Shown here in pieces: positions 54,062-56,931 of a stretch of 64,000 bases of DNA. The stretch comes from Picosynechococcus sp. PCC 7003 (GTDB taxonomy: Bacteria > Cyanobacteriota > Cyanobacteriia > Cyanobacteriales > MRBY01). Below the pieces are notes generated by a model that did no database searches, was not told the origin of the DNA, and saw nothing but the letters and a program-made list of their open reading frames with translations. The stretch is from assembly GCF_001693255.1 (NCBI RefSeq), contig NZ_CP016474.1, positions 1,320,661-1,384,660 of the forward strand, written 5' to 3'. A program made the position numbers and the translations under genes. How positions within the stretch are numbered: the stretch's first letter is position 1; every line of letters begins with the position of its first letter.

Positions 54062-55330
54062 ATGACTCCCCCCGTCTCTCTCCAAGCCATCATTCGAGAG
54101 TTAGAACAACATCCAGATGCCCAACGCATCAAAAAGTTGTTGATTTATACTGCTGTCAACCGTTGGGAAAGTAACCCCCAGTTACTCCAACGTCTCTCCC
54201 TTGAGCGCATTGTCAAAAAAAACCTTGATCAGTTTTTGAGTTTCAAAGAACTCCAACGAGCCTTTAGCAACTCTGTCAACACCCTCAGTCGGCCTGCCAC
54301 CTATGGTCGCCTTGCCAATGACATCTTGACCCAATTAAGCCCCCTCTACGAAGACCAAGATCTTTCTACGGGGATTGTTGCGCCTGGCCAGAGTAATCAA
54401 CAAAGCATTACAGAGATTCACCTCGAAGTTGCGGTGCAGACCCTTGAGGAACATCGCGAAAATATTCGCATCAAAAAATTGCTCTATGCCCTCTGTTTTA
54501 AGTGCTGGGAAAATAGTTTTCAGGTTTTAGAAGAATACACTTTGGCTAATCTGTTGCGCCAAGTAATCGTTAACTACCCCACCCGTAAACAATTTGAGAC
54601 GATCCTGCGTAAATTAGTTTCCCTACTTAACCGCCAACAAATCTATGGCCAATTAGCCGACGTGATCCTTGGGGCGATCGCCCCCCTATACAAATCTGGT
54701 GATTCTGCCACAGGTTTAACCAAACCCACCGCCGATCCCCCAGCACCAGTCCCCACCCCGGTTGGCCCGCCCCCTGCCCCAACCCCAGAGCCGGAGCCTG
54801 TGAACTATAAGCAGACCATGGCGTTTAATATTGGTGAACTTCCCATTCCCCATCCTGCCCAGTCAAGGGATCTTGATTTCAGCCCAAATCAAACCCTAGC
54901 TCTAGATCCAGAGACCCAGGGGCCCCAAACGATGGTACTCAACACCAGTGCTCCCCAACCAGCGCCGAAGCCCGCTCCAGCCCCAGCCCCGGTGGCGAAA
55001 AAAAAGCATTTTGCGGCTGATCTCAACATCTACGAACTCAAACTGGAGGTGATGAAATATGCTAATCCCCTCCGCACAAAAATTCTGCTGTTTTCCGTCG
55101 TCCATCACCCCTTCGATCTTAGCGGTAAAGATTGGTCAATGTTACGCACCTGTGATTTTGATGAGTTATTATCCGAAGTGCTGTGCGAGGCCTCTAGCCT
55201 CAATGCCCTGACAATCAAAATGTCGGCGATCGCCCGCTCACTCTTTGACGCAAACGAACATCTCCAAGCCGCCGAAGCCATCGTTCAAGCCGTGACGACC
55301 TTCACCAATCCCCCTGTCCATGACCTATGA
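54062..55330 (+). CDS. Protein with three repeated helical domains, unknown function
   Basis: A 422-residue soluble protein. It consists of three similar helical modules: about 1-105 (RIKKLLIYTAVNRWESN, LSLERIVKKNL), about 112-215 (RIKKLLYALCFKCWENS, YTLANLLRQVI) and about 325-415 (LRTKILLFSVVHHPFDL). The second and third are separated by a Pro-rich linker (about 225-320). The pattern RxKKLLxxxxxxxW..  marks each. No catalytic motif is visible; it looks like a scaffold. Its stop overlaps the start of the pentapeptide-repeat gene in ATGA, showing translational coupling. A GTG 21 bp upstream (54041) could also be the start. Confidence 0.7.
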   Translation: MTPPVSLQAIIRELEQHPDAQRIKKLLIYTAVNRWESNPQLLQRLSLERIVKKNLDQFLSFKELQRAFSNSVNTLSRPATYGRLANDILTQLSPLYEDQDLSTGIVAPGQSNQQSITEIHLEVAVQTLEEHRENIRIKKLLYALCFKCWENSFQVLEEYTLANLLRQVIVNYPTRKQFETILRKLVSLLNRQQIYGQLADVILGAIAPLYKSGDSATGLTKPTADPPAPVPTPVGPPPAPTPEPEPVNYKQTMAFNIGELPIPHPAQSRDLDFSPNQTLALDPETQGPQTMVLNTSAPQPAPKPAPAPAPVAKKKHFAADLNIYELKLEVMKYANPLRTKILLFSVVHHPFDLSGKDWSMLRTCDFDELLSEVLCEASSLNALTIKMSAIARSLFDANEHLQAAEAIVQAVTTFTNPPVHDL

Positions 55331-56319
55331 CCCCCCAAGAACTAATTGCTAAATATGCACTGGGAGAAACCCATTTCCCAGGGGCCCAACTCGATGGTGC
55401 GAACTTTTGGGGGGCAGATCTCATCGGCATTAATCTCCAAGATGCCGACCTCCATAATGCAATTTTAATTTTTGCCTATCTCAGCCGGGCTAACCTCAAA
55501 CAGACCAATTTTATTAATGCCAACCTCAGCGGCGCCAATCTTAACCAAGCCAATTTAACCTTGGCCGAACTCCACAACGCCGAACTCCATGGCGCTGTCT
55601 TAATTGGTGCCAACCTAACCAATGCCGACCTGACCCTAGCGAATTTACTCGATGCCAACCTCATGGGGGCAGACCTGCGGGGAGCAGACCTCAGTGGGGC
55701 TAATCTTTCTGGGGTTTGTTTGCGGGAAGCCAATCTGCGGGAAGAAAAGCGAGTTTATAACTCCAGTTTGCGGGGCACCATCCTCCGAAAAGCCGATCTA
55801 CAGGGGGCTAATCTCCAGGGCGCAGACCTCGCCCGGGGCGAATTAAGTGGTGCCAACCTCAAGGGCGTTAATTTCCGACGCGCCGATCTCCACGAAGCTG
55901 ATCTCAGTGGGGCCAACTTAGAAAATGCGATCTTGACCGAAGCGAATTTAATTGGGGCAAACCTTGTCAAAGCCAACCTCAAAAATGCAAAGTTGGAACG
56001 GGCTTTGATGGAAGATGCCGATCTTCGCCTCGCCAATCTCACCTGGGCCAATCTGCCGGGTGCCCGTCTCAATCGCGCCAAACTCAATAAAGCTGACTTG
56101 ACTAATGCCCGTCTCAACCGTGCAGATCTCAGTCGTACGAACCTGTCCCAGGCCAAATTAATTGATGCTGAAATGATTGATGCTTACCTTGCCCGTGCCA
56201 ATCTCATGGGGGCAGATTTAACCCGGGCAAACCTGGTCCGTGCTGAAATTAGCAGCACAAACCTTGCTGGGGTAATTCTGACTGGGGCGATGATGCCCGA
56301 TGGCTCCGAACACCGCTAG
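55327..56319 (+). CDS. Pentapeptide-repeat protein
   Basis: A 330-residue protein made almost entirely of pentapeptide repeats A(D/N)Lxx (for example ANLSGANLNQANLTLAELHN), which fold into a right-handed beta helix. There are roughly 55-60 repeats from about residue 20 to 320, with a short break (REEKRVYNSS) near residue 140. The N-terminus MTPQELIAKYALGETHFPGA is a common cap. Function is unknown; members can mimic DNA or act as scaffolds. Coupling with the upstream three-domain protein suggests the two work together. Confidence 0.93.
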   Translation: MTPQELIAKYALGETHFPGAQLDGANFWGADLIGINLQDADLHNAILIFAYLSRANLKQTNFINANLSGANLNQANLTLAELHNAELHGAVLIGANLTNADLTLANLLDANLMGADLRGADLSGANLSGVCLREANLREEKRVYNSSLRGTILRKADLQGANLQGADLARGELSGANLKGVNFRRADLHEADLSGANLENAILTEANLIGANLVKANLKNAKLERALMEDADLRLANLTWANLPGARLNRAKLNKADLTNARLNRADLSRTNLSQAKLIDAEMIDAYLARANLMGADLTRANLVRAEISSTNLAGVILTGAMMPDGSEHR

Positions 56320-56931
56320 ATCAATGTTGGCCTTTTCTTTAGCGGTATTCGGGGGGCTTCCCCTGCCATCTTTGCGAGAAAAAATTTTTTCAATAAAAAA
56401 ACCAGCCTAAGCTTCAGGGCTGGTCAGTTTGAGCTTGCTGTATGAGAGGAGAAACTCAATGTCAAGACGGCGCATGGTACTTTGCCGACAGATCCACTGG
56501 AATGGAAATCTGTAAAATCTTGGAATGAGCTTTGTTAAAAATTGTAACAAGCGCCATCAGTTTTTGCAATATTTCTTTACAGACGAACTGATACTTGGTT
56601 CGGACCTTGACTTTGAGCTTGGCGATCGCCAGCAAGATTAATCACGGGAAAATAGATTTTCTTGAAAAGGGGTTATTGTATTTTGCTTTAAGAACAGCCA
56701 TCAAAACGATAACGAAGATAAGTAATTATACTCAATTCTTTTATCTAAACTTTTCTTTCTTTGGCGATCGCCTTTGGTTTTTCAGTTGATAGGATAAAAT
56801 TCCATTCTTAAAGGATTTCTGCATTTGGAATTGTCTTTGGGAATGGACAGGGCAAGACACAATCAAATCTTAAATTATTGTTTATTGTTTGCAAGATCAA
56901 TAGACATTACGGAATTAATCAGCAGGAACAA
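56320..56931. other. Intergenic region holding a minus-strand RNA gene
   Basis: About 610 bp. The pentapeptide operon ends at the left; the minus-strand RNA candidate occupies 56393-56570. The rest (56571-56931) is AT-rich and holds a 64-codon frame (56595-56789) that starts with TTG and does not look coding. Confidence 0.45.
56394..56536 (-). ncRNA. psrR1: Candidate small RNA, PsrR1/SyR1-like
   Basis: Minus-strand promoter: -35 TTGCAA (56564-56569), 17-bp spacer, extended -10 TGTTACAAT (TACAAT at 56541-56546), so the start is near 56536. The transcript ends at ACCAGCC/GGCTGGT (56401-56407 and 56418-56424) followed by a T run (A tract 56395-56400), giving about 140 nt. There is no reading frame of note. 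It contains the CU-rich stretch TTTCTCCTCTCAT (56443-56455), suited to pairing with Shine-Dalgarno sequences. GTTACAAT-TT-TTAACAAA over the -10 fits the RpaB HLR1 box at 8/8 and 7/8. PsrR1 is a similar-sized, high-light-induced RNA under RpaB control; identity is inference. Confidence 0.6.

Follow-up and report, generated by a model that had tools for sequence, protein, structure and literature searches.

In the window (the whole 64-kb stretch of DNA analysed here), a pentapeptide-repeat gene (55327-56319) and a small plus-strand gene (~56938) adjoining ftsW flank what an earlier note read as the gene for the small RNA (sRNA) PsrR1 or a functional analogue. This raises three questions: whether the locus is an sRNA gene at all, whether its RNA is PsrR1 or a member of some other family, and which mRNAs it might act on. 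In Synechocystis, a feed-forward loop of PsrR1 and RpaB shields photosystem I under strong light, and PsrR1 (SyR1) of strain PCC 6803 (Voss 2009, PMC2662882) is reportedly also the subject of papers by Georg (2014) and Kadowaki (2016). In Rfam, this RNA is family RF02701.

A conserved small RNA gene

The locus had been described as an orphan unit in a gene-free region, and every piece of that description was found on the minus strand (Table 1): a TTGCAA box, a 17-bp spacer, a TACAAT box preceded by TG, ~141 nt from the inferred start, and a hairpin with a T run. The interval from 56319 to ~56938 holds no convincing gene. The T run (56401-56395) lies 3′ of the GACCAGCC...GGCTGGTT hairpin, which a simple terminator scan did not pick up, and the window sRNA folded as a single sequence is of modest stability (z -1.7).

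Searches recovered the sRNA in all six genus genomes, with E-values of 1e-29 to 1e-41. Across these genomes ATTGAGTTTCTCCTCTCATACAGCAAGCTC is invariant while the flanking intergenic DNA has diverged, and the promoter, including its HLR1 box, is retained. The earlier note had looked to close relatives for conservation of the CU-rich element, and there the element is kept within 30 nt of core that are identical in six of six. The minus-strand unit at 56394-56581 is a real, strongly conserved cyanobacterial small RNA gene, which confirms the original observation. Its surroundings are shared in part: the ftsW side is common to the window genome and four others (G001, G002, G003 and G005), and the pentapeptide gene adjoins the sRNA in Picosynechococcus genomes only. 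Among the ~85,000 species genomes searched, an exact 22-mer of the core occurs only in Picosynechococcus PCC 7117, of which the window genome is a close relative, and in a Limnothrix metagenome genome (G003). Carriage by phage was considered and rejected; the exact matches seen in viral contigs look coincidental and have neither terminator nor promoter. In the genus consensus fold, most of the CU-rich seed sits within a hairpin loop, whereas the window sequence alone folds otherwise; the stem of this seed hairpin is nearly invariant in the genus, so covariation says nothing for or against the fold.

An RpaB-like box over the -10 had also been reported, and our scan agrees. The candidate HLR1 site, GTTACAATTTTTAACAAA, is positioned over the -10 with one mismatch to the consensus, and it is the sole site within one mismatch in the 64 kb, where 0.10 would be expected. 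RpaB represses from boxes in the zone from -38 to +23 (PMC13421787); the sRNA's box occupies this zone, from which we infer repression by RpaB in low light. Upstream of the HLR1 box, TGTAAAGAAATATTGC forms what looks like a second promoter element, which can be followed from the genus to other families (L265, L267, L271 and L279).

Table 1. Features of the sRNA locus, in window coordinates
Feature	Position	Strand	Basis
Small RNA, ~141 nt	56394..56536	-	Conserved in six genus genomes; 5′ end near 56536 inferred from promoter
Intrinsic terminator, GACCAGCC/GGCTGGTT hairpin and T run	56395..56425	-	-12.4 kcal/mol; stem covaries in the wide family
Conserved core TTGACATTGAGTTTCTCCTCTCATACAGCAAGCTC	56431..56465	-	Last 30 nt identical in 6/6 genus genomes; match to PsrR1 motif
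Seed CUCCUCUCA	56443..56451	-	Exact complement of TGAGAGGAG in the psaL leader (9 nt)
HLR1 (RpaB-type) box, candidate, GTTACAAT-TT-TTAACAAA	56531..56548	-	Covers the -10 and the inferred start; kept in genus
-10 box TACAAT with upstream TG	56541..56546	-	Consensus scan; kept in genus
-35 box TTGCAA	56564..56569	-	Consensus scan; 9/12 matches together with the -10 box
Conserved upstream element TGTAAAGAAATATTGC	56566..56581	-	Extends into the -35 box; kept at all genus loci, recognisable in many wide-family loci

PsrR1 and a wider family of HLR1-driven RNAs

Among Rfam families, cmscan placed RF02701 first at the sRNA locus, with 31.4 bits and an E-value of 0.002 in 2 kb. Nowhere else in the whole genome of 3.35 Mb does RF02701 match better (E 8e-4); the score misses the family's gathering score of 42 bits. 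In the alignment, UUGACAUUGAG and then UUCUCCU are matched almost letter for letter, with one extra U. At the relatives' loci RF02701 scores 32.5 bits in G001 and 31.4 bits in G002; in G003 and G005 the sRNA locus is again the top match, but a weak one, and in G004 it is not the top match. Locus L010 is Synechocystis PsrR1 itself: the primer sites published for SyR1 fall within it, and the gene upstream encodes a ketoacyl synthase, in agreement with the description of fabF. The covariance-model comparison proposed in the earlier note bears out the choice of family and of genomic place, and stops short of the gathering score. Its reading as PsrR1 or a functional analogue is supported at sequence level by the best Rfam family, by the position of the HLR1 box and by pairing with psaL and psaA; identity with PsrR1 is not established at 31.4 bits against 42. 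We consider it likely that the sRNA works like PsrR1. It is probably the counterpart of PsrR1 in the Picosynechococcus/Limnothrix group, and we give slightly more than an even chance to its being PsrR1 in a broad sense.

The sRNA also has relatives of another kind. A model built from five genus sequences (R1) detected loci in other families of the order as well, with E-values down to 8e-5, and these loci contain CUCCUCCCAACACAGCAAGCU, share the terminator stem of the genus RNAs and have an almost perfect HLR1 box. A second model (R2), made from 20 such wide-family loci and without promoter sequence, has matches at E<1e-6 throughout the class, in about 150 of the 388 cyanobacterial genomes; at E<=0.1 the number is 237 genomes, the weak ones including noise. 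The wide family shares the motif CUCC..CAACACAGCA, its core also being given as CCUCCCAACACAGCA, and its terminator stem covaries. In the window sRNA, a CUCC..CA(A/U)(C/U)ACAGCAAGC core is followed by a GACCAGCC...GGCUGGUU terminator, and the score with R2 is 67.1 bits, from a training set that includes the window sequence. Membership in the family has independent support because R1, a genus-only model, found the wide-family loci.

The promoters provide a second line of evidence. Outside the genus, an HLR1 box with at most two mismatches lies upstream of 48 of 56 loci, nearly all of them 79-123 nt from the core (~95 nt); the background rates are 1.2% in shuffles and 0/56 in a downstream control. 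In the genus, with the core's TTGAG as reference point, the boxes lie at -86 to -89. Because R2 contains no promoter sequence, this upstream enrichment is independent support for a real, RpaB-controlled family. As judged from sequence, the window sRNA is a member of a cyanobacteria-wide family of HLR1-driven sRNAs. In the wide-family loci searched outside the genus, neither RF02701 nor any other Rfam family matches the core above background, and because of this the family does not appear to be held in Rfam 15. When the core sequences were searched for in the literature text, no paper on cyanobacteria came up.

These relationships allow an alternative that concerns ancestry, not mode of action: the sRNA would be a member of an uncatalogued class-wide family, RpaB-controlled and everywhere driven by an HLR1 promoter, that is distinct from PsrR1, and its Picosynechococcus branch would have converged on a PsrR1-like sequence and on psaL targeting. 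We regard this as plausible, at somewhat less than an even chance. It is favoured by the better fit of the window sRNA to R2 than to RF02701 (67 vs 31 bits), by the aforementioned lack of RF02701 matches outside the genus, and by the failure of a direct test for the PsrR1 motif TTGACATTGAG at the corresponding place in the wide family; because that test failed, common descent of PsrR1 and the wide family is not claimed as established. One genome (G039) carries above-threshold RF02701 matches and a wide-family locus at separate places, which would fit two families, but some of these matches follow psb34 and could therefore be the tails of mRNAs. Moreover, where HLR1-driven genes stand alone in the examined genomes, they are either of one kind or of the other, and the genus RNA is matched by both models. 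RF02701 also lacks a clear match in Synechococcus elongatus, despite the assignment to PsrR1 of a 131-nt, high-light-induced sRNA in strains UTEX 2973 / PCC 7942 (PMC6091082), so the Rfam PsrR1 model may be too narrow. If the RNA does belong to a distinct family, the post-transcriptional arm of RpaB would be nearly class-wide, with this RNA serving in most lineages and PsrR1 in Synechocystis-like ones.

Some RF02701 matches have a different setting. In three families they follow immediately on the psb34 stop codon (L013:1501-1584, L320:501-580, L016:1501-1576 and L021:1501-1581; genomes G039, G020 and G058), and two of these exceed the Rfam threshold. Genome G029 has three above-threshold matches (L331:501-588, L332:501-588 and L012:1279-1361), at least one of them right behind pgr5, a gene reported to be under RpaB control. 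Their positions suggest that the matches behind psb34 and pgr5 could be tails of light-stress mRNAs, not stand-alone genes.

Predicted targets and proposed mode of action

The CU-rich stretch had been thought able to mask ribosome-binding sites, and by computation it does pair with those of psaL and psaA. Five genus genomes have the psaL leader TTTTGAGAGGAG, with GAGAGGAG as the ribosome-binding site, and the sixth has TTTTGAGAGGAA, with GAGAGGAA. We searched for targets by pattern scans, together with the stretches around the matches. Among 51 genome sites of GAGAGGAG, those in ribosome-binding position at genes with an identified product belong to psaL, psaA, psbE, ccmM and ndhJ; in G005, where 57 of 61 sites were examined, psaL, psaA and ccmM appear again, joined by glnB. 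The control word AAGAGGAG yielded no photosystem gene in the 63 of 67 sites examined; its sites include cyanase, glnB and a carboxysome shell gene, named by eye. For glnB (PII), the leader has GAGAGGAG in G005 but AAGAGGAG in the window genome (L152 and L195), so targeting of glnB may be confined to one branch. Counted over all contigs, GAGAGGAG, the complement of the seed, is rarer than the reversed word, the one word used for comparison (51 vs 92 in the window genome, G000, and 61 vs 90 in G005); it looks as if off-target sites were avoided.

The duplex energies of the candidates are -25.7 kcal/mol for psaL, -24.9 for psaA, -23.4 for psbE, -22.9 for ccmM and -21.4 for ndhJ. One of 47 window genes is as strong as psaL, in a null where every gene counts with the most favourable of several start codons (a conservative choice) and RNA structure is ignored on both partners; strong members of the null reach -26.6, -25.5 and -25.3 kcal/mol. 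Of the partners suggested in the earlier note, psaL pairs well, whereas the cpc leaders do not, with cpcB and cpcA duplexes of ~-12 kcal/mol and cpcA mid to low in the 47-gene null. Only 2-3 of 1000 shuffled cores reach the genus psaL values. The psaL match was examined in the genus and in Synechocystis, and when the sRNA and psaL partners were swapped between the genus and Synechocystis PsrR1, the duplex was weaker in both directions and the own-lineage pairs stronger. This lineage specificity speaks for a psaL pairing that has co-evolved, though it does not yet amount to evidence of regulation.

The explanation that best accounts for the whole, and that we hold with fairly high confidence, is a trans-acting sRNA of ~141 nt, similar to PsrR1 in its action and probably its counterpart. 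Because the HLR1 box lies over the promoter, RpaB bound there in low light would block transcription, and its departure in strong light would allow the sRNA to be made. We predict that the RNA then base-pairs through its CUCCUCUCA seed with the Shine-Dalgarno region of psaL, and probably with those of psaA and a few other photosynthesis mRNAs (psbE, ccmM and ndhJ). Such pairing would block translation initiation and perhaps draw in RNase E, whose cleavage of psaL has been reported in Synechocystis (PMC10989914).

The CU-rich stretch might instead resemble an anti-Shine-Dalgarno sequence by chance, the sRNA having some other role without regulation of psaL or psaA. Although CUCCU pairs with any strong Shine-Dalgarno sequence, and comparable duplex energies are seen at a few unrelated genes of the window, an exact 9-nt match is kept with psaL, the psaL pairing is lineage-specific, and the rare GAGAGGAG (51 sites) is found at psaL and psaA in G000 and G005 alike; we consider a chance resemblance unlikely. 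That the stretch encodes a small protein is highly improbable and was rejected: two mechanical open frames of 47 and 57 codons do overlap the sRNA, but both begin upstream of the inferred transcription start and are broken by indels among genus members, while the nucleotide identity of the core is unbroken and the terminator pairs covary.

On the preferred reading, that the sRNA works like PsrR1, the Picosynechococcus group would have a PsrR1 counterpart whose psaL/psaA seed is conserved, and the searches point to an HLR1-driven sRNA family in more than a third of the 388 sampled cyanobacterial genomes. A 2026 review left open how broadly RpaB loops are conserved (PMC13421787); this becomes testable by covariance-model search and strong-light RNA-seq.

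Comparison with known systems

With Yfr10 (RF02362) and Yfr1, the window sRNA has in common a short CUCCUC motif able to bind ribosome-binding sites. Yfr10 was rejected as an identification, its model giving 28.7 bits against a gathering score of 43 (E 0.11) and a poor structural fit. The PsrR1 reported in S. elongatus (557,000-557,130 in PCC 7942) is 131 nt long, compared with ~141 nt here (PMC6091082).

Several features set the window sRNA apart from Synechocystis PsrR1. Specifically, it scores 31.4 bits against the threshold of 42, its seed is lengthened to CUCCUCUCAUACAGCAAGC, other letters are used in the psaL duplex, its neighbours are those of the ftsW side where Synechocystis has fabF-hoxH, cpcA and cpcB are not among its predicted targets, and it fits the wide HLR1-driven family better. 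Despite these differences, both are RNAs of ~130-140 nt from a stand-alone gene with an intrinsic terminator, both contain the core UUGACAUUGAG and UUCUCCU, and both combine an RpaB-type box at the promoter, here predicted, with pairing over the psaL ribosome-binding site, here computed.
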